Below, piece by piece: positions 3,008-36,917 of a stretch of DNA of 36,917 nucleotides (the first letter of the stretch is position 1; every line of letters starts with the position of its first letter). The notes beneath the pieces were generated by a model. That model saw only the letters and a program-made list of their open reading frames with translations. It was not told where the DNA came from and searched no databases. This stretch comes from a virus, in IMG/VR virus record IMGVR_UViG_3300013120_000025, positions 1-36,917 of that record, one strand, 5' to 3'. Both the position numbers and the translations under genes were made by a program.

Positions 3008-3459
3008 TAGTTGTCCTTCAGGCAGCGGATACGATTGATGATCCCAATAATCTCGTTGCGGCTTCTCATACCAGCCTCGAAGCCTCCGTAGTCTGGCATG
3101 AATCCCGGTGCGTGTATTTTGTTCTGTGAAGACGAGACGCATTCCAGATTAGCAAGACAGTTATTTGTCTTGACCCCATCTATGTGATTGGTTTCAAACC
3201 CTTTAGGATAAGGGCCGATGAATGATTCAACGACTAGGCGATGAACGCTGCATATCTTATTCTTGCCGTGCTTGTATAGATCGACGTGCAGATACCCTCT
3301 GCTACTTGCTGCCGACCTCAAGATCTTATTGATGAACGATCCGCCACCAGGTTTCTTTCTGCGTACTCTCCCATGATCGCTGACCTCATACCACCCCTCA
3401 TAGCCAACAACAGGCAACCATCGTTCGTTTGGGATTGATTTGTCTTGTGCTTTTGTCAT
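3007..3459 (-). CDS. NUMOD4-HNH homing-type endonuclease
   Basis: The ATG at 3459 follows AGGAGG at ideal spacing and gives 150 aa. Residues ~12-35 (ERWLPVVGYEGWYEVSDHG) are a NUMOD4 motif. Residues ~60-105 form the HNH_3 core, with VHRLVVESFIGPYPKGFETN, then H-x-D-G and the NNCLANLECV strand. Such free-standing nucleases cut DNA without the gene and spread between phages. It interrupts the run between the YqaJ exonuclease and small early genes, typical of a mobile insertion. The reading frame stays open upstream to 3573 through a structured RNA, so an N-terminal extension of 38 residues is possible but less likely. Confidence 0.88.
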   Translation of the reverse strand: MTKAQDKSIPNERWLPVVGYEGWYEVSDHGRVRRKKPGGGSFINKILRSAASSRGYLHVDLYKHGKNKICSVHRLVVESFIGPYPKGFETNHIDGVKTNNCLANLECVSSSQNKIHAPGFMPDYGGFEAGMRSRNEIIGIINRIRCLKDN

Positions 3460-3483
3460 AACCCTACCTCCTACAGTAGTTAG

Positions 3484-3544
3484 TGCGAAGGCCCGCGCCG
3501 TCTGTAGGACGGGCGCGTATGGCCCACGGGTTGGGCCTTTCGCA
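3484..3544 (-). promoter_or_regulatory. Structured leader (three-way-junction-like RNA) before the HNH gene
   Basis: On the minus strand TGCGAA (3544-3539) pairs with TTCGCA (3489-3484) and encloses two hairpins. One is GGCCCA-ACCCG-TGGGCC (3537-3521). The other is CGCGCC-GTC pairing at 3517-3494 with one bulge. The outer stem can alternatively extend GGCCC/GGGCC at the expense of the first hairpin, so two folds compete. It ends about 15 bases before the ribosome site of the HNH gene. Translational control of the nuclease is inferred, by analogy with hairpins that gate homing endonucleases in T4. Confidence 0.55.
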
Positions 3545-3566
3545 CATAGATTATACACGACTTTCA

Positions 3567-3604
3567 ATCTCATTGCATACCTCTTATCTCATTGCATACC
3601 TCTT
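3567..3604. repeat. Perfect 19-bp tandem duplication at the exonuclease stop codon
   Basis: The 19-base unit AAGAGGTATGCAATGAGAT (minus strand) occurs twice head-to-tail, at 3604-3586 and 3585-3567. Because 19 is not a multiple of three, the second copy is read in a new frame. It supplies the TGA that ends the YqaJ gene and also places AGAGG six bases before an ATG at 3573. Confidence 0.95.
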
Positions 3605-4175
3605 CCAACTCATTGCAGAACTCAACGAGCGCCGTCTGTAGCTTGTCGTTAAATATGTCATCGCGATAAACGCGAAGAATAAACAATGGCAATCCTGGCG
3701 AGTAGCTGACAAAATCACACCATAATCGCTCGGTTACAAGCAACTGTCCGGCAACTTGCTGAACGTAGGTCGACGGCAACTTGTTCTTGATGAGATAGCC
3801 AACGTGCGTCTTGGCATCCGGGTTCTTAAGCTCAAGCACACCGTCCGAGCCGATAAGCCCATCAGGTGACGCACCCCATCGCCCGCAATCGCTGATGCAG
3901 AAGCCGACTTCATCAACCGAGACTTCCTGCTCCATCGCGTAGATCATGCGAGACAGCGCCTCGCGGTCGTGGCCTTCCTGCATTGCTGCGGACTGGAAGC
4001 CTTTTTTGTAGATACCAGTTATCCGAACAGCAGCACGCTCGTAGAGATATGCTGTGCGTTGCTTGGACGGCTCACCCTTGCTGGTTACGATCTTGCTGAA
4101 CTGTGAGGCGGTGGGGAGGCCACGTCTTGCCTCCCACCATTCCTCGGAGTATTGGTCGTGGCTATGCTGGATCAT
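3570..4175 (-). CDS. YqaJ/lambda-exonuclease-type recombination nuclease
   Basis: This 201-aa protein has the PD-(D/E)xK core of viral alkaline exonucleases. GLPTASQFSKIVTSKGEPS (residues 19-37) is the family opening, GHDREALSR carries Glu72, and WGASPDGLIG (Asp105) is followed by VLELKNP (Glu115, Lys117). Such enzymes degrade the 5' strand of duplex ends to give 3' single strands for a partner annealing protein. The ERF gene lies immediately upstream and overlaps by 14 bp, forming a Red/RecET-like pair. The last ~7 residues arise from a 19-bp tandem duplication at the stop codon. Confidence 0.9.
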   Translation of the reverse strand: MIQHSHDQYSEEWWEARRGLPTASQFSKIVTSKGEPSKQRTAYLYERAAVRITGIYKKGFQSAAMQEGHDREALSRMIYAMEQEVSVDEVGFCISDCGRWGASPDGLIGSDGVLELKNPDAKTHVGYLIKNKLPSTYVQQVAGQLLVTERLWCDFVSYSPGLPLFILRVYRDDIFNDKLQTALVEFCNELEEVCNEIRGMQ

Positions 4176-4824
4176 TGGACTCAGCTTTCAGCCGCTTCAG
4201 ATAGGTGGCATACGCATCATGTACTTGCGCCGCGCCTTCCTTTCCACAGTCGGCCTTGACCTTGGCTCCCACTTCCTTCCACCACGGAGCGAACGTCTTA
4301 GCATCAGTGTTGCTGGCCTTCTCGCACTCGTTCAGCCAATGTTCGATAGCATCTCGGATGGATAGGTCATCGTCCTCACCTGATGCCTCTGGATCGTCAC
4401 CCCAGGAGATGAGGAACTTGCCAGAACAGGCGTACTTGATCGCGGCGGTGTTGGCCTTCATCACAGCCTTGTCGCCGGAGTCAATGCCGGACCCCAGCCC
4501 CTGCGCCCTTGCGATGAAGATGCCGTCCGTAAAGAACAGAGAGGTCTTCACCACAGCGAGCGACTTTGCTCCGATAATGTGGAACTCCACGATGTCCGAT
4601 TCGCTCTCTACGCTGATACCTTCTTTCGCGCATTCGTCGCGGACCTTGTCCAGCACCTTGCGAGCGGTAGCGTAGGTATACGAGAACAAACTTCCCGTCA
4701 TTGTCGCGTCCTTCTGAAGATAGCCGATTGAATCCATGATGCGGACCATCTTCGCGTTGAACTCGTCCACGCGATCAAGTAGCTTTGCGTCCGTCAACTT
4801 CTCTCCAACAGCGGTAAGGTTCAT
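4162..4824 (-). CDS. erf: ERF-family single-strand annealing protein
   Basis: The protein has 220 aa. Residues ~35-60 (YLQKDATMTGSLFSYTYATA) and ~105-140 (AQGLGSGIDSGDKAVMKANT, then AIKYACSGKFLI and WGDDPEA) match the ERF signature. In that signature a Lys-rich start is followed by a G-x-G-x-D-x-x-DKA-x-x-KA core and a GDDPE end. ERF proteins anneal complementary single strands during phage recombination. The last ~70 residues are a helical, Lys/Glu-rich region of unclear role. The gene pairs with the YqaJ exonuclease downstream. Its ATG overlaps the upstream stop (ATGA). Confidence 0.9.
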   Translation of the reverse strand: MNLTAVGEKLTDAKLLDRVDEFNAKMVRIMDSIGYLQKDATMTGSLFSYTYATARKVLDKVRDECAKEGISVESESDIVEFHIIGAKSLAVVKTSLFFTDGIFIARAQGLGSGIDSGDKAVMKANTAAIKYACSGKFLISWGDDPEASGEDDDLSIRDAIEHWLNECEKASNTDAKTFAPWWKEVGAKVKADCGKEGAAQVHDAYATYLKRLKAESNDPA

Positions 4825-5000
4825 TCTGCCTCCTTGTTGCCTACCGTCATCCCATGTTGTCGTAGGATTGACGCCGCCTCAGACGTGGATAGGATGCCAT
4901 CCCTCCCAAAAGAATCGTCCAGATCTCGCGCTTCTTGTATAATCTCGCGGGCGCTGGCCAGCTTGCCGTTAATCGTATACTTCTTATCATCCATGCTCAT
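4821..5000 (-). CDS. Hypothetical small early protein (59 aa)
   Basis: The start is the ATG at 5000, five bases behind AGGAGG and overlapping the upstream stop. The 59-aa product (MSMDDKKYTINGKLASAREI at the start) is charged and mostly helical. Its C-terminal half, LSTSEAASILRQHGMTV, resembles a short helix-turn-helix or excisionase-like segment, but is too short to assign. It overlaps erf by four bases, so the two are probably co-translated. Confidence 0.6.
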   Translation of the reverse strand: MSMDDKKYTINGKLASAREIIQEARDLDDSFGRDGILSTSEAASILRQHGMTVGNKEAE

Positions 5001-5170
5001 TCTGCCTCCTTGAGTTCGCTCCAAAAGGCCATCCCGATCTCAAACAGTCGCCCGTCTACGTCAATTCTTACGGTTGATCCGCTGATCTCTTGGACCGACC
5101 ACGCTTTGTGCTTGCTGAGTAATTCAATCGCTTCCTTCTCAGTGAGATTACATTTCTCGTATCGCTTCAT
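4997..5170 (-). CDS. Hypothetical small early protein (57 aa)
   Basis: This short gene begins at the ATG at 5170 behind GGCAAGGAGGATGGACG and ends in TGA overlapping the next start (ATGA at 5000-4997). The product starts MKRYEKCNLTEKEAIELLSK. It looks like a helix followed by a small beta sheet (VQEISGSTVRIDVDGRLFEI). No family is recognised. Overlap at both ends and a clear ribosome site make it credible. Confidence 0.6.
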   Translation of the reverse strand: MKRYEKCNLTEKEAIELLSKHKAWSVQEISGSTVRIDVDGRLFEIGMAFWSELKEAE

Positions 5171-5418
5171 CGTCCATCCTCCTTGCCGTCATCATCGTGA
5201 CGGTCGTGCGTGTCGCGTACGCGCTTCTCAAACGCGAGCAGCTCGTTGAAAACTTCCTGCTCAACCTCAGTGAGCGGCGCGAGATGGGCTTGATCGTCTT
5301 CCCGGTGGTCGCGCTCGATGGAATACTCCTCCCGGCTCGCGCTGTAGAAGACTTGCTGGCCGTCGATCTTGGCGAACGTATCGAGGATCTTCACTGGTTC
5401 GTAGCCTGGATAGCTCAT
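5167..5418 (-). CDS. Hypothetical acidic early protein (83 aa)
   Basis: The product has 83 aa and starts MSYPGYEPVKILDTFAKIDG. After a short beta region it becomes strongly charged, with a Glu/Asp/His-rich C-terminal third (EKRVRDTHDRHDDDGKEDGR). It is tied to both neighbours by ATGA overlaps, and GAGGAGG lies nine bases before the start. Function is unknown. The acidic character would suit a protein that mimics DNA or binds a host factor, but nothing specific shows this. Confidence 0.55.
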   Translation of the reverse strand: MSYPGYEPVKILDTFAKIDGQQVFYSASREEYSIERDHREDDQAHLAPLTEVEQEVFNELLAFEKRVRDTHDRHDDDGKEDGR

Positions 5419-5672
5419 GGGGCCTCCTCGTCTTCAATGTGCGCGACCATCTCACGCAGTAAATGCTTGGATATAGGCGAGAGATCTTTTACGATGTATG
5501 AAATCTGGAAGACGTCACGAGCATCACCCCAAGCGAACATAGCCTGGAATGCCTCATTCAAAAAAGCTGCTTGCTGGGTTGAGTCCCCTTCAGCAAAGAG
5601 CTTAGCCATCTCTTGCGGCGATATCTCGATCTCTTCGTCTATTCTCTTGTGAACGATAAATCCGTCCATCAT
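5415..5672 (-). CDS. Hypothetical early protein (85 aa)
   Basis: The 85-aa protein begins MMDGFIVHKRIDEEIEISPQ and is predicted all-helical after residue 15. The middle (STQQAAFLNEAFQAMFAWGD) is amphipathic and the C-terminus is acidic. AAGGAGG stands six bases before the first ATG. It overlaps the downstream start by four bases. I do not recognise the family. Position and size are typical of phage early host-takeover genes. Confidence 0.55.
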   Translation of the reverse strand: MMDGFIVHKRIDEEIEISPQEMAKLFAEGDSTQQAAFLNEAFQAMFAWGDARDVFQISYIVKDLSPISKHLLREMVAHIEDEEAP

Positions 5673-30685: not shown

Positions 30686-32050
30686 TCAATACGGACTTAT
30701 CTCCTCATCCAAATCAACGCCCATCACGCCCCGTTCCTCAAGCGGTGCGGACTCCAATGTGTGAAGAGCATAGCGAAGACAGTCGGGAAGATCGTCGTTT
30801 TTCTTGATGGGCTTCTCGGCATTGTCTACCACCTTGCCCGTTACCGGGTCCGTTTGCCATCGGTACTTAGCCATCTGATCAACGAAGACAGGACACTTGC
30901 CGCGCATCACCTTCAGCCGTCCTGACTTGATGATGCCGGTTACCGTGATTATACCCGGTCTGACTGCATTCATCGACTTATAGAACGAGCCACATTGAAG
31001 CGGGCGAGCGATTCGAGACGAACAGTGAGGACAGATATATGGGTATGATTCCGTATGCAACTCCTCACCGCACTCTGGACACTCTTCATATGTCATCAAG
31101 TTCACAACGTCGGTCAATCGCGCCGGATCGTATAGCCATCCTTGGTTGATCCCCTCAATCTTGGCAAGCATCGCCTCGGCATACTCGCGAGCAGACTTCA
31201 CTTCCTCTTCGTAGTACTCATCATAGACGTAGTACGTCCCACGATTCCACGCCATGAACAGGCCGCCGTAGTGCACAGCAGGATCGACGATAGCGTAGGT
31301 GGGCCAGTCGTCGGGTATCTCGAACGGATCGACGTAGAGGTGGTCCCCGAAGTCAGGATACACAAGACCGAACGGCTTGCGAAATTTGCCGAGGTAGGCC
31401 ATCTCAAACAGCCACGTCGGCAGAGTCGCCTTTGCGTTGTCGAACTCCTCTCGTGGGTATTCGGGATTCGCGGTTGATGGTGCCTCGATTACCACGATAT
31501 TGTCCGCGCCCTTTGTCCAAGGAACATACAGATTCTCGTAGTACCAGCCCATGTTCGTAGGGTAGCCAGTAAACAGGACAGGCGCTTCGTAGAACGCGGT
31601 TCGCCGCATGATGATCGGCCAGATGAGGGACTTCATCTCGCTGGGCTCATCCAAGACAGCGCCCCTCACGTGATGCCCTTCGATGCGATACGGCTTCTCG
31701 GCAGAGCGCATGTAGATGTTGCCACCTGTGGGCAGCTCATATCGCCGCCCGCTGATGTGGTAATGCCCCTCAAGCTCGGTGTCCCTGAATCGCTCCTCAA
31801 TCTCGGGCAGGATCATATCGTTAACCATGTCGCCCGTGCATCCGATGGCTAGGTAGCGTGCGCCCTTCCCATTCCCAGCCTCATGGTCACGCATGATGAG
31901 GTAGGATAGCCAGGCAGGAATCCACCACGTTTTCCCGGAGCCGGTCCCACAGAGCATGATGATGTAACGCTTGCCCTCATCAACAGCGGTGAGAGTCGCG
32001 TCCTGGAACCAATAGGCGGTGACGGTCTTCTCAGGCGCTTCGGTTGGCAT
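30686..32050 (-). CDS. terL: Terminase large subunit (with zinc-ribbon insertion)
   Basis: The ATG at 32050 (AAGGGACGTT before it) gives 454 aa. The ATPase has Walker A GTGSGKT (residues 35-41) and Walker B GAVLDEPSEM (Asp134-Glu135). The nuclease half shows YAIVDPAVHYGG, GWLYDPARL and DDLPDCLRYALHTLE, giving the acidic residues of an RNase H-like fold. About residues 322-343 contain CPECGEE and CPHCSSR, a two-knuckle zinc ribbon inside the nuclease domain. The enzyme pumps DNA into the procapsid and cuts it. It follows the small subunit after ~60 bases. Confidence 0.92.
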   Translation of the reverse strand: MPTEAPEKTVTAYWFQDATLTAVDEGKRYIIMLCGTGSGKTWWIPAWLSYLIMRDHEAGNGKGARYLAIGCTGDMVNDMILPEIEERFRDTELEGHYHISGRRYELPTGGNIYMRSAEKPYRIEGHHVRGAVLDEPSEMKSLIWPIIMRRTAFYEAPVLFTGYPTNMGWYYENLYVPWTKGADNIVVIEAPSTANPEYPREEFDNAKATLPTWLFEMAYLGKFRKPFGLVYPDFGDHLYVDPFEIPDDWPTYAIVDPAVHYGGLFMAWNRGTYYVYDEYYEEEVKSAREYAEAMLAKIEGINQGWLYDPARLTDVVNLMTYEECPECGEELHTESYPYICPHCSSRIARPLQCGSFYKSMNAVRPGIITVTGIIKSGRLKVMRGKCPVFVDQMAKYRWQTDPVTGKVVDNAEKPIKKNDDLPDCLRYALHTLESAPLEERGVMGVDLDEEISPY

Positions 32051-32109
32051 AACGTCCCTTGATAACTGCAAGTTCTCTACGCGCACTAGTCACAACAGCC
32101 TCCTTGGGT

Positions 32110-32667
32110 TCATTCATCTTCTGGCTCTTTCTTCGCTCCTCGCACGATCACCAACGGGCCTTTGATCTTCACGTCGAGTTCGCTCCGATCAACGAACATG
32201 CCAAGGTGCTTCCCGATGTCCACTAAAGCGCCCTTCTTATCGTGGAACTTGATCTTCACCTTGCGCACTTGGCGGGCATTCTCTCCTCTACCTTCGAAGT
32301 AGTCCTCAACCAACGTCTCGGAGATCGCGGCTGCCTGCTCCCTTGTGAGGCCGGATAGGTCAATGAATGGATCGCCGTCTGGTCCGATTCTGATGTAGTC
32401 CTTCATGTTCGCAAAGCCAAGCAGTGCCAATTCCTTCAACACCATATCGGCAGTGATCTCAGTGCGCTTTGATCTCTCTTCCATGATTACAGCAAGAGCT
32501 TCTTGGATGTACACTTTTGACAACAAGTTTGCCCCGATCTGTCGCGAGGTCTTGGCGCTATACCCGGCCCGTATAGCCGCTTGTGTTGCATTCAAGTCTA
32601 CCGGATATTCCTCTACGAATCGTTGTTGCTTATCCGTTAGCTTGCAGGTTTTTGATTCGCCTGGCAT
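32110..32667 (-). CDS. terS: Terminase small subunit (Terminase_2 type)
   Basis: The ATG at 32667 (AAGGGAGTGCAA before it) gives 185 aa. Residues ~8-60 match the DNA-binding head of the family: LTDKQQRFVEEYPVDLNATQ, AAIRAGYSAKTSRQIGANLL, then SKVYIQEALAVIMEERSKRT. The C-terminal half has KVKIKFHDKKGALVDIGKHL, the usual end before the tail. It recognises the packaging site and loads TerL. The pac/cos site was not found. It overlaps the MazG-like gene by 31 bp. Confidence 0.9.
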   Translation of the reverse strand: MPGESKTCKLTDKQQRFVEEYPVDLNATQAAIRAGYSAKTSRQIGANLLSKVYIQEALAVIMEERSKRTEITADMVLKELALLGFANMKDYIRIGPDGDPFIDLSGLTREQAAAISETLVEDYFEGRGENARQVRKVKIKFHDKKGALVDIGKHLGMFVDRSELDVKIKGPLVIVRGAKKEPEDE

Positions 32668-32879
32668 TTGCACTCCCTTATCGCCGCAACACACATCGCG
32701 GCAACTTGGATCAGTTCCTTTCGTCCATCTTCGTCGCGCTTGACAAGTTCCCAATACTCGTCAAGCTCTTCCAGTATAACAGCATACGCCTCATGCTGGC
32801 TGTGAAACGCTGGGAACTTCTTCCGGGCGCTCTGAATCTCCGCTTCGATCTGCTGGTAGATTGTCACACTGGCCCCCAT
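32637..32879 (-). CDS. MazG-like nucleotide pyrophosphohydrolase
   Basis: This 80-aa protein has the MazG-like layout in a single short domain: EIQSARKKFPAFHSQHEAYA, then VILEELDEYWELVKRDEDG with the E-E-x-x-E metal motif, and ELIQVAAMCVAAIRE. Such enzymes hydrolyse nucleoside triphosphates to monophosphates. Phage copies are thought to adjust alarmones or dNTP pools. The start is uncertain: ATG at 32879 or GTG at 32867. Either way the gene overlaps the PAPS-reductase-like gene out of frame by 77-89 bp. Confidence 0.75.
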   Translation of the reverse strand: MGASVTIYQQIEAEIQSARKKFPAFHSQHEAYAVILEELDEYWELVKRDEDGRKELIQVAAMCVAAIRECKCQANQKPAS

Positions 32880-34119
32880 CCGTTTCCGAAATCTGGTTTG
32901 GCGCGAATAGATCCATCCTCCACGCTTCCCGCCGCCTTTTCATCAAGGCCAGATACTTTTGATACGCTTCGCTTTTGTGCTGTGAAAAGCCCAGCCCTTT
33001 GCTCCAATAGTCGTTCCTCAGCAGTGACTTGCAAACTCTTCTCCATGACGGAACCTTCCTTTTCGCTTCTAGCGCATAGTCTGCTTCGTCGGGGATCCCT
33101 TCAGGATAGCCGCGCTCCATCCACCATCTGTTGAATAGTATGATCTTGTTTTCGTAGTGTTCCTTAGTCTTCGGCGGCATAGAAGACACGAGTAACTTAG
33201 AAAAGCTCTCCCAGGTATGTCCGGGCGGCTTGGTTATCTTCCGGTAGCCGTTGATATTGCCCCACTCCTGAACATACATTGCCCCACCATTAGCTCCGTT
33301 TACTCGCGACACCACACGCGCCCACGTTTCTGGCTCTATGATGTGGAATAGCCACAGGCCGCGTCGCTGATCGTCTCCGTAGGGCTGGCAAATCCTCATT
33401 TGGTGTGGCGTCAGCCCTGCTTTGTTCATGTAGTCGTATAGCTCGTTGTATGGCTTGTCTGGATTCTTGTAATGGTATACCCAGATGTCCGATGTCTTCC
33501 AATCGTAGACCGGATAGATATTGTACACTTTGTCGATTACTCGCGTTGTCCACTGCCTGCCATCTAAAGCCTCTTTCGTTCTACTCGCAATCGTCCGAAA
33601 CCTGTTGAGACTTTCATCAGATCGTATACCGACGAAGCAAGCACACCGCTCGCCATTAGCATACCACGCCCCGAATTCGGGGACAAACTCTTCAAACTCC
33701 ATCCCGGAATGAAAGAAAGGGAACGAATCATTCCTAGATATAGCCTCTCTCGGCATCTCGCGTATCCAAGCATCCTCCCTGTCTTTATCCCAGCACTTCC
33801 AGAACGCTTCGTATACGCTCACAGCATTGCGAAGATGAATCGGCAAGGCGACCCAGAAAGGCTTTGTGTTGTCGGCATATAATTCATAGCACAGCCTGAT
33901 ATGGTCTATCGTTAGCTTGTACTGGCCCTCAAGATCAATAAACAACACGCCGACCTCTTGCTCTCTCTTAATCGCTTCATCCATCACAAGGTGCAACATA
34001 ACCGTGCTGTCTTTACCTCCACTGAAGCTGACGTACACTCTCTCAAAATTATCGAAAGTCCATGAGATCCGTTCGCGAGCAGCCGCGAGGACGTTTATGC
34101 CTAGCTTCGTTTTTGGCAT
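32791..34119 (-). CDS. PAPS-reductase-like ATP pyrophosphatase (DUF3440/IbrA-type)
   Basis: The 442-aa protein has the PP-loop VYVSFSGGKDSTVMLHLV (SGGKDST, residues 33-39) of adenylating enzymes. WVALPIHLRNAVSVYEAFWK, ACFVGIRSDESLNRF and VYPVYDWKTSDIWVY-like segments (NIYPVYDWKTSDIWVYHYK) follow. The C-terminal half (YENKIILFNRWWMERGYPEG, DYWSKGLGFSQHKSEAYQKY) fits DUF3440 proteins such as YbdN and IbrA. It follows the ParB-like gene and a 138-aa gene in one overlapping run. Its substrate is unknown. The last ~30 residues overlap the MazG gene. GGAGGGGAA precedes the ATG. Confidence 0.85.
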   Translation of the reverse strand: MPKTKLGINVLAAARERISWTFDNFERVYVSFSGGKDSTVMLHLVMDEAIKREQEVGVLFIDLEGQYKLTIDHIRLCYELYADNTKPFWVALPIHLRNAVSVYEAFWKCWDKDREDAWIREMPREAISRNDSFPFFHSGMEFEEFVPEFGAWYANGERCACFVGIRSDESLNRFRTIASRTKEALDGRQWTTRVIDKVYNIYPVYDWKTSDIWVYHYKNPDKPYNELYDYMNKAGLTPHQMRICQPYGDDQRRGLWLFHIIEPETWARVVSRVNGANGGAMYVQEWGNINGYRKITKPPGHTWESFSKLLVSSMPPKTKEHYENKIILFNRWWMERGYPEGIPDEADYALEAKRKVPSWRRVCKSLLRNDYWSKGLGFSQHKSEAYQKYLALMKRRREAWRMDLFAPNQISETDGGQCDNLPADRSGDSERPEEVPSVSQPA

Positions 34120-34517
34120 TTCCCCTCCAATAACGGCGACTGTTCTTGCCTCGCATTATGTTCTTGCTCCCATTTCAAAATAGCTTCGTCGGCTTTCGCG
34201 TTAGCTTTGTCCTGTTGTTCTTCTGACAAGAAGCCCCACGCCCATCTAGTTATATCTTCCGGACAATCCGTGGCAAGGCAACAAGCGGCGTGACCAATCC
34301 ATGCTTGCCTATTGATGCTTGAACAAGTCAAGTTCTGCTCGCAGGATATAGGCCATTCTTCTATAACTTTCAACATCCACTCCCCGTATAGCTCCGCATC
34401 CCCTGTGAACTGAATAGCCGCTTCCAATAGCTCTTCGCGCTTGCTGCCGTGGACATTTCGCCACATTCCGTATTTATGCTCTTCCCACTCGCTATAATGG
34501 TGGTAGATCTGTTTCAT
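34101..34517 (-). CDS. Conserved cassette protein (138 aa) between ParB-like and PAPS-reductase-like genes
   Basis: The protein is mainly helical with conserved-looking aromatic residues: MKQIYHHYSEWEEHKYGMWR, LYGEWMLKVIEEWPISCEQN, SINRQAWIGHAACCLATDCP, then EDITRWAWGFLSEEQQDKAN. Five Cys lie between about residues 79 and 105, so metal or cofactor binding is possible. I recall similar small proteins beside ParB/PAPS pairs in other phages, but I cannot name a family or function. It overlaps ParB by four bases and the PAPS gene by 19, so all three are likely translated together. Confidence 0.7.
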   Translation of the reverse strand: MKQIYHHYSEWEEHKYGMWRNVHGSKREELLEAAIQFTGDAELYGEWMLKVIEEWPISCEQNLTCSSINRQAWIGHAACCLATDCPEDITRWAWGFLSEEQQDKANAKADEAILKWEQEHNARQEQSPLLEGKCQKRS

Positions 34518-35212
34518 GCTGTGTCTCCAATCGCCAACGAGTCGTCCATATTAATAACTGATACATCCGCTTCCCACGCCTCTGTGAATTCTTGGTCTGC
34601 GAACATCTCTGCAAGGCCACTTATTTGGGCAAGCCTCAATACTTCGTCTGGGTCCATTCCCAACTCGCGTCCAATCTTTTTATCTGACCAATTGCGGCGC
34701 TTGAGTTCAACGACAATCTCTGACATTGAATCAATGCGGTGTTTCCCCCTGGCCCTGTTATGGCGAATCGTTGCCGCTATTCTGTCTCCACGATCTTGTC
34801 GATCAACGTTGATGACTGACAGCGGTAAGTACCCTTGGATTCGCGCTTGCACGAGAAGGCTTTCTCTCCCCACTCGGTTACGGTGGAATCCGTCTACTAC
34901 TTCGTAAGAATCTCCGCGCGTCCAAGAAACAATCGGCTGCGTATAGCCGTCTTCCTGGATGGAGTGTTCAAGAAGCTTCATTTCAGGAGGGGCTACCTGG
35001 TTTGGGTTATAGTTGTTTGCCTCTATTGAAGCGAATGGAACCCAAAGAACACAATCCACCGGCTCCTTAGAGAATGGCCCCGCTTCATGCAACATCTCAC
35101 GAACATCATTAAGAACTGATACTTGCTCTTCAAAGTCCATACCCTTGATGGCCTCACACAGTGCTTCCGCCTGCCCGCGAATTCCATCTATCTGTGTGGT
35201 TGTCTCATTCAT
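34514..35212 (-). CDS. ParB-like nuclease-domain protein (IbrB/YbdM-type)
   Basis: The ATG at 35212 (AAGGGGTGATGTA before it) gives 232 aa. The upstream in-frame ATG at 35302 is excluded because it overlaps the -10 box of the promoter. Residues ~60-130 are the ParB/sulfiredoxin-like domain: PPEMKLLEHSIQEDGYTQPI, YEVVDGFHRNRVGRESLL with the DGxHR box, and ATIRHNRARGKHRIDSMSEI. A helix-turn-helix-like region follows (SDKKIGRELGMDPDEVLRLA). In E. coli related ParB-like and PAPS-like proteins (IbrB/IbrA) are encoded as a pair and act together. Confidence 0.82.
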   Translation of the reverse strand: MNETTTQIDGIRGQAEALCEAIKGMDFEEQVSVLNDVREMLHEAGPFSKEPVDCVLWVPFASIEANNYNPNQVAPPEMKLLEHSIQEDGYTQPIVSWTRGDSYEVVDGFHRNRVGRESLLVQARIQGYLPLSVINVDRQDRGDRIAATIRHNRARGKHRIDSMSEIVVELKRRNWSDKKIGRELGMDPDEVLRLAQISGLAEMFADQEFTEAWEADVSVINMDDSLAIGDTA

Positions 35213-35300: not shown

Positions 35301-35330
35301 ATTATACATTCAACCGCTGATGCCCGTCAA
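35301..35330 (-). promoter_or_regulatory. Strong promoter for the ParB-terminase operon (TTGACG-18-TATAAT)
   Basis: On the minus strand TTGACG (35330-35325) is followed by 18 bases and a perfect TATAAT (35306-35301). Transcription should begin near 35294, leaving an ~80-base leader before the ParB start. It is the best candidate for the main late or middle promoter. Confidence 0.78.
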
Positions 35331-35639: not shown

Positions 35640-35928
35640 CGTGGTCCTCCTTGTCTCTCCAAACATTCACTACGTCGCCAGCAACTGTAACGTCTGCGCC
35701 GTCTTCGTCTTCGCTTTCAAACTCTCCTCTGCAATAGATCTTGTCGCCGTCTGGGAACATCAACACGACCCGCCCACCTACTCCTGGCCTGAAGTCGTCC
35801 ACAGTAATGGCGTGAAACTTATCGCCTTTCAGCATCCTGATCTGATCGCCACGCGATAGGGTGAATTCTAGCCTGACCGTGCCATTGTCCATGTCGATCT
35901 TCTTTACCTGTAGCGGTTCATACATCAT
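35617..35928 (-). CDS. Small beta-rich acidic protein (103 aa)
   Basis: The protein begins MMYEPLQVKKIDMDNGTVRL, then EFTLSRGDQIRMLKGDKFHA and GGRVVLMFPDGDKIYCRGEF, a beta-barrel-like pattern. It ends in a strongly acidic tail (ESEDEDGADVTVAGDVVNVW). AGGAGG lies six bases before the ATG at 35928, which overlaps the HNH stop by 11 bp. Residues 15-24 are coded by a 28-bp repeat shared with the next gene. Function is unknown. Confidence 0.55.
   Translation of the reverse strand: MMYEPLQVKKIDMDNGTVRLEFTLSRGDQIRMLKGDKFHAITVDDFRPGVGGRVVLMFPDGDKIYCRGEFESEDEDGADVTVAGDVVNVWRDKEDHDADETRT
35856..35883. repeat. 28-bp repeat, copy 2
   Basis: This is identical to 35360-35387 and in the same reading frame (GTVRLEFTL), near the N-terminus of the 103-aa protein. 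Confidence 0.96.
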
Positions 35929-36808
35929 CTACCTCCTGCCTCACACCCGCAATCACAGAGCCGCCTTTCAGGACGATCTCTCCTGGGCGGATCTCAACTT
36001 CCTCATCCGTCGCCGCGCTCACCTCGCGATAAGAGCCGGTGAAAGTGCGGTACTTCTTCTGCCTTTCAGGGCCCGGATACTTCTCATTGAATAACGACCA
36101 GGCTTCTGCTGGGGGTAACTCAGCGAACCATCCAGCGACCTCGGATAGATCGTCTTCCGGTATCTTGCGCAGCCTGTCGGCTACGTCGATGTCTAGCGCG
36201 TTCATGTCCTGACTGTCGCCACGGAAGCCATTCACGCGGATGCGCTTCTTGACCTCTGCGCTGGACAGGCCAAGCGATGCCCCGAGGTCTAGGTAGTCCT
36301 CACTTCCAACCGCAGGCGCAACGCCCTTGTCCTTGAACCATGCGAGATATTCAGCAACCTTCCACGCGGCGAGGCGCTCTTGCTGAATCAGGGCCTTGAG
36401 CTTTTCCGACTTCGATTCGGCTTCCTTCCAATCCCAGCGGACGTAGAACCAAAGATCAGACTGAGGAACGACGCGGCCATTCGGGGCGCGGATCTGCATG
36501 AGGCCTTCGCAATCAGCTATCCCATTCTCATCGAAGTTCACTACTTCTCTGGGCCATCTCAGATTCGTCGGCGCAATGAACTCTTCCCACACGTACACCC
36601 GCCCTTGATGGAATCGCGCATGACACTCGCCACACGATGCTGCTAGATTCGGCGGCAAGTTCTTCCAGTGCGTGGGAGGAAGCCCGCCTCTGCCTTGGTG
36701 GTCCTTGTGGGATATCTGATCGGCGGGAACTGGCGAGCGGTGGAAAAACTGGCAGTGGCCTTCGTCTCGTTCCATCACCTCGCGGCGGGTCGCGTCACTG
36801 ATCGGCAT
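35918..36808 (-). CDS. HNH endonuclease with large C-terminal region
   Basis: The ATG at 36808 (GAGG with six-base spacing) gives 296 aa. An upstream GTG at 36820 has no ribosome site. Residues ~10-70 form the HNH domain: Cys19, QISHKDHQGRGGLPPTHW (His34-His37), then NLAASCGECHARFHQ with Asn54, Cys59, Cys62 and His67. The C-terminal ~220 residues are mostly helical (KAEYLAWFKDKG-like segment VAEYLAWFKDKGVAPAVGSE; DIDVADRLRKIPEDDLSEVA) and unfamiliar. HNH proteins near the terminase often aid packaging cuts. This one lies further upstream, so replication or host DNA attack are also possible. It overlaps the RHH gene by 14 bp. Confidence 0.8.
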   Translation of the reverse strand: MPISDATRREVMERDEGHCQFFHRSPVPADQISHKDHQGRGGLPPTHWKNLPPNLAASCGECHARFHQGRVYVWEEFIAPTNLRWPREVVNFDENGIADCEGLMQIRAPNGRVVPQSDLWFYVRWDWKEAESKSEKLKALIQQERLAAWKVAEYLAWFKDKGVAPAVGSEDYLDLGASLGLSSAEVKKRIRVNGFRGDSQDMNALDIDVADRLRKIPEDDLSEVAGWFAELPPAEAWSLFNEKYPGPERQKKYRTFTGSYREVSAATDEEVEIRPGEIVLKGGSVIAGVRQEVDDV

Positions 36809-36917
36809 CTTCAACCTCACATGCTGGCTTCACCACGCAGCTTGCACATAAGTCGCGGTAATCTGCCATCACGCCTCCTTGCTCTCGTCCTTTGCTTCGC
36901 AGGAATTCCATCCCAAC
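36795..36917 (-). CDS. C-terminal part of the RHH gene (right-end copy)
   Basis: The last ~40 codons of the ribbon-helix-helix gene appear here, ending in TGA at 36797-36795. It is the same gene as 1-281, split by the linear cut of a circular sequence. The stop codon exists only in this copy. Confidence 0.8.
   Translation of the reverse strand, partial: VGMEFLRSKGREQGGVMADYRDLCASCVVKPACEVEDADQ
36799..36917. repeat. Right copy of 119-bp terminal redundancy
   Basis: This is identical to bases 1-119. Joining the two gives a circular genome of 36,798 bp. Confidence 0.97.

Follow-up and report, generated by a model that had tools for sequence, protein, structure and literature searches.

An IbrAB-type gene cassette with a third, helical component in a tailed phage and its possible role in nucleic-acid modification

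The closest described relatives of the cassette reported here are the E. coli pairs IbrA/IbrB and YbdN/YbdM and the phage pairs of the families phrog_2302 and phrog_2159. The annotation of E. coli IbrA and IbrB is that of co-activators in the expression of prophage genes. IbrAB-like pairs are present in 1853 of 5426 complete E. coli genomes (a third) and in phages of several phyla. A comparable pairing of a ParB-superfamily NTP-binding protein with a nucleic-acid modifying enzyme is known from DndB/DndC and DpdB/DpdA, in which the ParB-like DndB and DpdB work with DNA-modifying enzymes (PMC12839542). DndC, which needs a cluster cysteine (C280; PMC11662687), has a PP-loop in common with IbrA. 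The PAPS-reductase fold and the PP-loop also link IbrA to CysH, CysD and the PAPS domain of FAD synthase. Of these, CysD and FAD synthase are AMP-transferring enzymes not known to use a catalytic cysteine. IbrB resembles the ParB/Noc/KorB CTPase clamps in its ParB_N and helix-turn-helix (HTH) fold and in the GxxR P motif, the arginine of which other ParB folds need in order to bind their NTP, be it CTP, ATP or GTP (PMC12704722). The IbrA/IbrB pair is already known; to it are added a third component, undescribed in the open-licence literature searched, and modular enzymatic extensions.

The DNA analysed (the window), an IMG/VR virus record of 36.9 kb, contains terminase, portal, capsid and tail genes. 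The cassette and its surroundings comprise the following features:

35918-36820: HNH-like protein, 300 aa, upstream of the cassette (phrog_740, 3e-5)
35301..35330, minus strand: predicted sigma-70-type promoter TTGACG-18-TATAAT, 11/12 matches
34514..35212, minus strand: IbrB-like protein of the ParB/sulfiredoxin fold, 232 aa, with ParB_N and a predicted KorB/Noc-like HTH
34101..34517, minus strand: p138, 138 aa, predicted all-helical partner, matching no library family
32791..34119, minus strand: IbrA-like PP-loop enzyme, 442 aa, DUF3440 and PAPS_reduct
32637..32879, minus strand: ORF of 80 aa, phrog_25385/2831, possibly MazG-like
32110..32670, minus strand: small terminase subunit (terS), context (PF03592, 2.8e-38)
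30686..32086, minus strand: large terminase subunit (terL), context (phrog_2, 4.3e-31), the query for finding relatives

An ORF check reproduced exactly the strand, lengths and overlaps of the three-gene cassette proposed in a preliminary description made from the sequence alone: IbrB and p138 overlap by 4 nt (ATGA), p138 and IbrA by 19 nt. IbrA overlaps the 80-aa ORF by a further 89 nt. This MazG-like ORF, followed by terS and terL, lies directly downstream and is probably co-transcribed with the cassette, of which it is at most a candidate member. The promoter given in the preliminary description was located at 35330-35301 on the minus strand and is the sole 11/12 site in the window, while simulated windows lead to an expectation of 0.33; it is a plausible cassette promoter, not proof of one. 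The IbrB start was assigned to the ATG at 35212, and its open frame extends to 35302, where an ATG falls inside the -10 box. Like the E. coli and phage pairs, the cassette encodes the same domains in adjacent, overlapping genes. It differs in the presence of p138, in the order IbrB-p138-IbrA instead of IbrA-IbrB and in its terminase-proximal phage slot.

The IbrA-like protein reached 119.6 bits (1.7e-34) with PF11922 (DUF3440, cut-off 25) and 56.0 bits (6.7e-15) with PF01507 (PAPS_reduct, cut-off 22.5), was assigned to phrog_2302 (2.3e-85) and is 48% identical to IbrA of Escherichia phage PhiR5_2. Loss of the PP-loop residues in homologues had been named as an outcome that would refute the proposal; the motif S[GAS]GKDS is kept in 140 of 142 relatives, a result in favour of the proposal. 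Residues S33, G35, K36, D37, S38 and D62, and likewise E64, R166, E169, S170 and R173, are essentially invariant among the 142 non-redundant sequences. No cysteine is invariant in this set (the best column reaches 90%, with serine there in the window), and the CysH motif ECG(L/I)H is present in 0 of 229 IbrA relatives. The structural model (pLDDT 83) matched PAPS/APS reductases, CysD and, with the top TM score of 0.67, the FAD-synthase PAPS domain. The profile search agrees with this fold (CysD 4e-6, CysH 3e-5, FAD synthase 8e-5). Residues about 409-442 form a low-confidence tail, which overlaps the next gene. By alignment and model, IbrA is thus a PP-loop enzyme with the PAPS-reductase fold and no conserved cysteine. 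Compared with CysH, CysD and the FAD-synthase domain, it lacks the CysH motif ECGLH and has an extra DUF3440 region and a C-terminal module, and no CysN partner was seen.

Sulphur modification of nucleic acid was among the roles first suggested for the cassette. DNA or RNA would then be modified as by Dnd, Ssp or BREX type 4 systems, with host IscS as the sulphur donor. Weak profile matches to DndC (5e-8) and BrxP (1e-8) and the parallel with ParB-like DndB beside DndC are consistent with such a role, as is, with confounding, an E. coli mutant derepressing ybdNM: deletion of citR (ybdO) increased ybdN about 45-fold and also raised the cys regulon (PMC9068703, Table 1). The latter result was kept out of the main evidence because tcyP is also up in an unrelated ygfI mutant. 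The missing invariant cysteine, which contrasts with the need of DndC for C280, and the absence of ECG(L/I)H make a sulphur relay on IbrA unlikely, and Dnd- or CysH-type sulphur chemistry likewise appears unlikely from the alignments. Moreover, the relation to Dnd and Dpd proteins is remote in sequence, and no DndA/D/E-like or TGT gene was seen adjoining the cassette; the listed clusters of recurrent neighbours, whose ORFs were annotated in part, included no recognisable dndD, dndE or dndA/iscS, though host IscS could serve. We consider sulphur modification improbable: a nucleic-acid role stays plausible, while the DndC/CysH-type sulphur part of the suggestion is unsupported. The idea that IbrA is a true CysH, an auxiliary gene of sulphate assimilation, follows the reading given to phage and virome genes so annotated (PMC10434257, PMC8725595). 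It is hardly tenable, being already contradicted by the 0 of 229 count for ECGLH and by the obligate link to IbrB and p138. The simplest reading is that IbrA would perform AMP transfer or activation, as CysD and FAD synthase do.

The IbrB-like protein belongs to phrog_2159 (ParB-like, 2.5e-71) and is 53% identical to IbrB of phage PhiR5_2, so that the original assignment of both proteins to the IbrB/IbrA families was right; its ParB_N score of 24.2 bits is slightly under the Pfam cut-off of 26.3. Its two signature boxes, also recognised at the outset, read DGFHR and RHNRARG in the window, and DG.HR plus HNRAR are kept in 132 of 132 relatives. The NTP-binding GxxR P motif sits inside DG.HR in the same 132 of 132. 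In the model of a related IbrB-p138 fusion (locus L121) the ParB_N-HTH part matches Noc, KorB and ParB structures. Motif and model accordingly place IbrB among the ParB/Noc/KorB-type proteins: the motif that binds the NTP phosphate is intact, and an HTH follows from the fold. DGFHR and RHNRARG replace the canonical boxes of these clamps, and the pairing with IbrA sets it further apart. No invariant cysteine was present in the alignment of IbrB relatives, and no ParA was found adjoining the cassette.

For p138 no family was found in Pfam, PHROGs, NCBIfam or PADLOC. A comparison of 129 diverse members with Pfam and PHROGs gave no consistent family, and a Psu-like match of 1 member only (E 5e-4) was treated as chance. 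The p138 profile reached a best E of 0.27 against PDB, and a fold search within the IbrB-p138 fusion model returned ParB matches only, none for p138. In this model of the natural fusion the p138 domain is all-helical with a pLDDT of about 97; the overall values are pLDDT 88 and pTM 0.54, and because of the latter the domain arrangement is uncertain. The first viral set contained 19 open frames in which IbrB and p138 are fused, and the full set 20 after redundancy removal. IbrB is N-terminal and p138 C-terminal in every one, and no other fusion among the three core genes was seen in the same loci. In position, p138 stands where ParB/Noc/KorB clamps have their C-terminal dimerisation domain. The fusions and the near-exclusive presence with IbrAB indicate that p138 very probably belongs to the IbrB machine, as a predicted helical partner that forms the C-terminal domain of IbrB in some relatives. 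The label "cysteine-containing", applied to p138 in the preliminary description, is literally correct but carries little weight, since its cysteines are not invariant (78-79% in the best columns). This third gene appears to be undescribed, as it is absent from the open-licence literature searched and from the four family libraries.

The three genes recur together, as the proposed check of their co-occurrence revealed. All three are present in 76 of 80 p138-anchored IMG/VR loci, the remaining 4 being cut by contig ends, and in 6 of 6 GTDB genome loci with p138. Of 50,697 phage records, 216 contain IbrA and 218 contain IbrB, the two lists of hosts being almost the same; p138 was detected in 6, every one with IbrAB. 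DUF3440 was found in 18 of 388 Pseudomonadota genomes and 4 of 395 genomes of the second phylum sampled, where IbrB adjoins the DUF3440 genes wherever the fetched flank permits. Only 1 of the 388 genomes has p138, which is therefore mainly a viral addition. Pairwise distances of IbrA and IbrB correlate with r=0.88 (permuted maximum 0.09), a value indicating that the two form an evolutionary unit. The correlation of p138 is only 0.27-0.30; it thus seems to diverge or to be exchanged more freely. When only IbrA or IbrB served as the anchor, 126 unique loci were obtained, comprising 100 with p138, 22 with p140, 4 with neither and 0 with both; as these are the best-scoring relatives and hence nearest kin, such proportions do not extend to IbrAB as a whole, and the E. 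coli and Streptococcus pairs are without p138. The unrelated small gene p140 (phrog_26647-like; L125 3251-3673, L107 3293-3697, L006 571-948) lies directly before IbrA in 22 of the 26 close relatives without p138, and the two genes are mutually exclusive. Gene6 of CV-1-33 was rejected as a p138 homologue: it is only 11% identical and belongs to the p140 family.

Further enzyme modules accompany IbrAB in relatives. An ectoine-synthase-like cupin (PF06339, 1e-33) was found in 37 of 224 unique IbrAB loci (e.g. L071 4086-4478, L002 5075-5467) and is fused in front of IbrB in 26 of the 37 (e.g. L003 4742-5641). These cupins retain the EctC positions E57, Y84/85 and H92/93 plus R25, T40, Y52 and H55, with conserved metal ligands. 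Two residues through which EctC touches its free substrate (PMC6344544), W21 and N38, have been exchanged. This pattern suggests EctC-like catalysis on a different substrate. A GNAT gene is present in 14 of the 224 loci, never alongside a cupin (L244 2881-3321, L139 1878-2321, L247 2078-2518); a comparison with named phages, seeking a Mom-like name, gave no match. Downstream of p138, L003 (6263-6580), L002 (6239-6598), L019 (5341-5613) and about 45 further loci have a small stand-alone gene homologous to the C-terminal part of IbrA (about residues 316-400). It occurs mostly with the cupin and is present in 36 of the 37 cupin loci. It overlaps the p138 3' end in another frame, mostly by roughly 80-150 nt, as a conserved overprinted gene. 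What looked like second copies of IbrA in about 45 loci were such modules. The window itself contains neither cupin nor GNAT nor stand-alone module. In Microbacterium phage Leaf an IbrA-like gene annotated as adenylyltransferase ends an acetyltransferase/methyltransferase/glycosyltransferase cluster (L286 1272-4152), a stretch without IbrB.

Cassettes of three to five components with enzyme modules and fusions are unlike toxin-antitoxin pairs. A guilt-by-association list contains Listeria lmo1309/1310 as a DUF3440 toxin with a ParB antitoxin (PMC7020466); this entry is based on neighbourhood alone, and we regard the assignment as very improbable for the present cassette. As a more specific and rather tentative proposal, the modules could belong to a hypermodification system in which an IbrB-p138 clamp would deliver DNA (or RNA) to IbrA, and IbrA would AMP-activate an acyl group or one resembling an amino acid and install it there, with the cupin fused to IbrB and the GNAT as interchangeable tailoring enzymes across phages.

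The genomic slot provides additional information. The terL relatives (69-74%) with both flanks available, L289, L291 and L294, are all without the cassette, which is therefore accessory. In L289 a fusion of SNF2 helicase and N6_N4 DNA methyltransferase (3317-5581) fills the HNH-to-terminase interval, where the window has the cassette. The HNH-like gene is conserved in relatives that lack the cassette. In phages of Streptococcus, Lactobacillus, Flavobacterium and Pseudomonas a DEAD/SNF2-type helicase is the immediate neighbour of IbrAB, and in a Fusobacterium phage one gene separates the two; those of phrog_62, which adjoin IbrAB in three unrelated groups of phages and are one gene distant in a fourth, are L283 1758-2996, L287 1833-3002, L285 1203-2426 and L284 5171-6367. 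This helicase/methyltransferase context is supporting, not decisive. Together, the fold, the HTH, the DNA-methyltransferase replacement and the helicase neighbours make a nucleic-acid role plausible. The patchy accessory spread in phages, with terL relatives lacking the cassette and DUF3440 present in 18 of the 388 Pseudomonadota genomes, would also suit an anti-defence or signalling enzyme that acts on a free nucleotide or amino acid and adenylylates or removes a defence signal, IbrB being a DNA-anchored regulator. The adenylyltransferase-like fold of IbrA and the small-molecule substrates of EctC and GNAT relatives fit such an enzyme. Nevertheless, we find it unlikely, as a DNA-binding ParB-HTH protein as obligate, co-evolving partner would be left unexplained.

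We favour, with a probability of about 0.37, the view that this tailed phage carries the IbrAB-type cassette as an accessory system for covalent modification of nucleic acid, most likely DNA, by AMP activation. NTP-gated IbrB would bind DNA, and p138 would let it recruit or position IbrA, which may spend ATP on adenylylating or otherwise activating a group before its transfer to the DNA. In relatives the cupin or GNAT could tailor the transferred group. So marked, the DNA would be shielded from restriction or differently transcribed, which would also account for the description of IbrAB as co-activators. This proposal is based on the linkage, the IbrB-p138 fusions, the IbrA-IbrB correlation, the conserved PP-loop and GxxR, the ParB/Noc/KorB matches of IbrB and the proximity of IbrA to CysD, CysH and FAD synthase, as well as on the L289 methyltransferase in the slot, the helicase neighbours, the cupin/GNAT modules and the DpdB/DndB precedent. 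Against it, neither a cupin nor a GNAT is present in the window, phages commonly carry helicases and methyltransferases, and the HTH is equally compatible with plain transcription control.

Such NTP-switched control is the main rival. IbrB-p138 would be a CTP- or ATP-switched DNA clamp activating phage or host promoters, and IbrA would make or sense a small nucleotide that sets the switch, the DNA remaining unmodified. This is possible but somewhat doubtful: the annotation of the E. coli proteins, the KorB/Noc/ParB fold with its HTH and the fact that ParB folds are NTP switches (PMC12704722) argue for it, while the strictly conserved catalytic PP-loop and the recurrent cupin/GNAT modules point to chemistry, no target promoters are known, and the cassette phages infect hosts with very different promoters.

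With the fusions of IbrB to p138, the alternatives to p138 as third gene and the cupin/GNAT modules, the IbrAB pair becomes a testable enzyme system. In addition, phage genes called PAPS reductase (cysH) and read as sulphate assimilation may be IbrA without the CysH cysteine. Since IbrA-type proteins are without this catalytic residue, such annotations (PMC10434257, PMC8725595) need checking.
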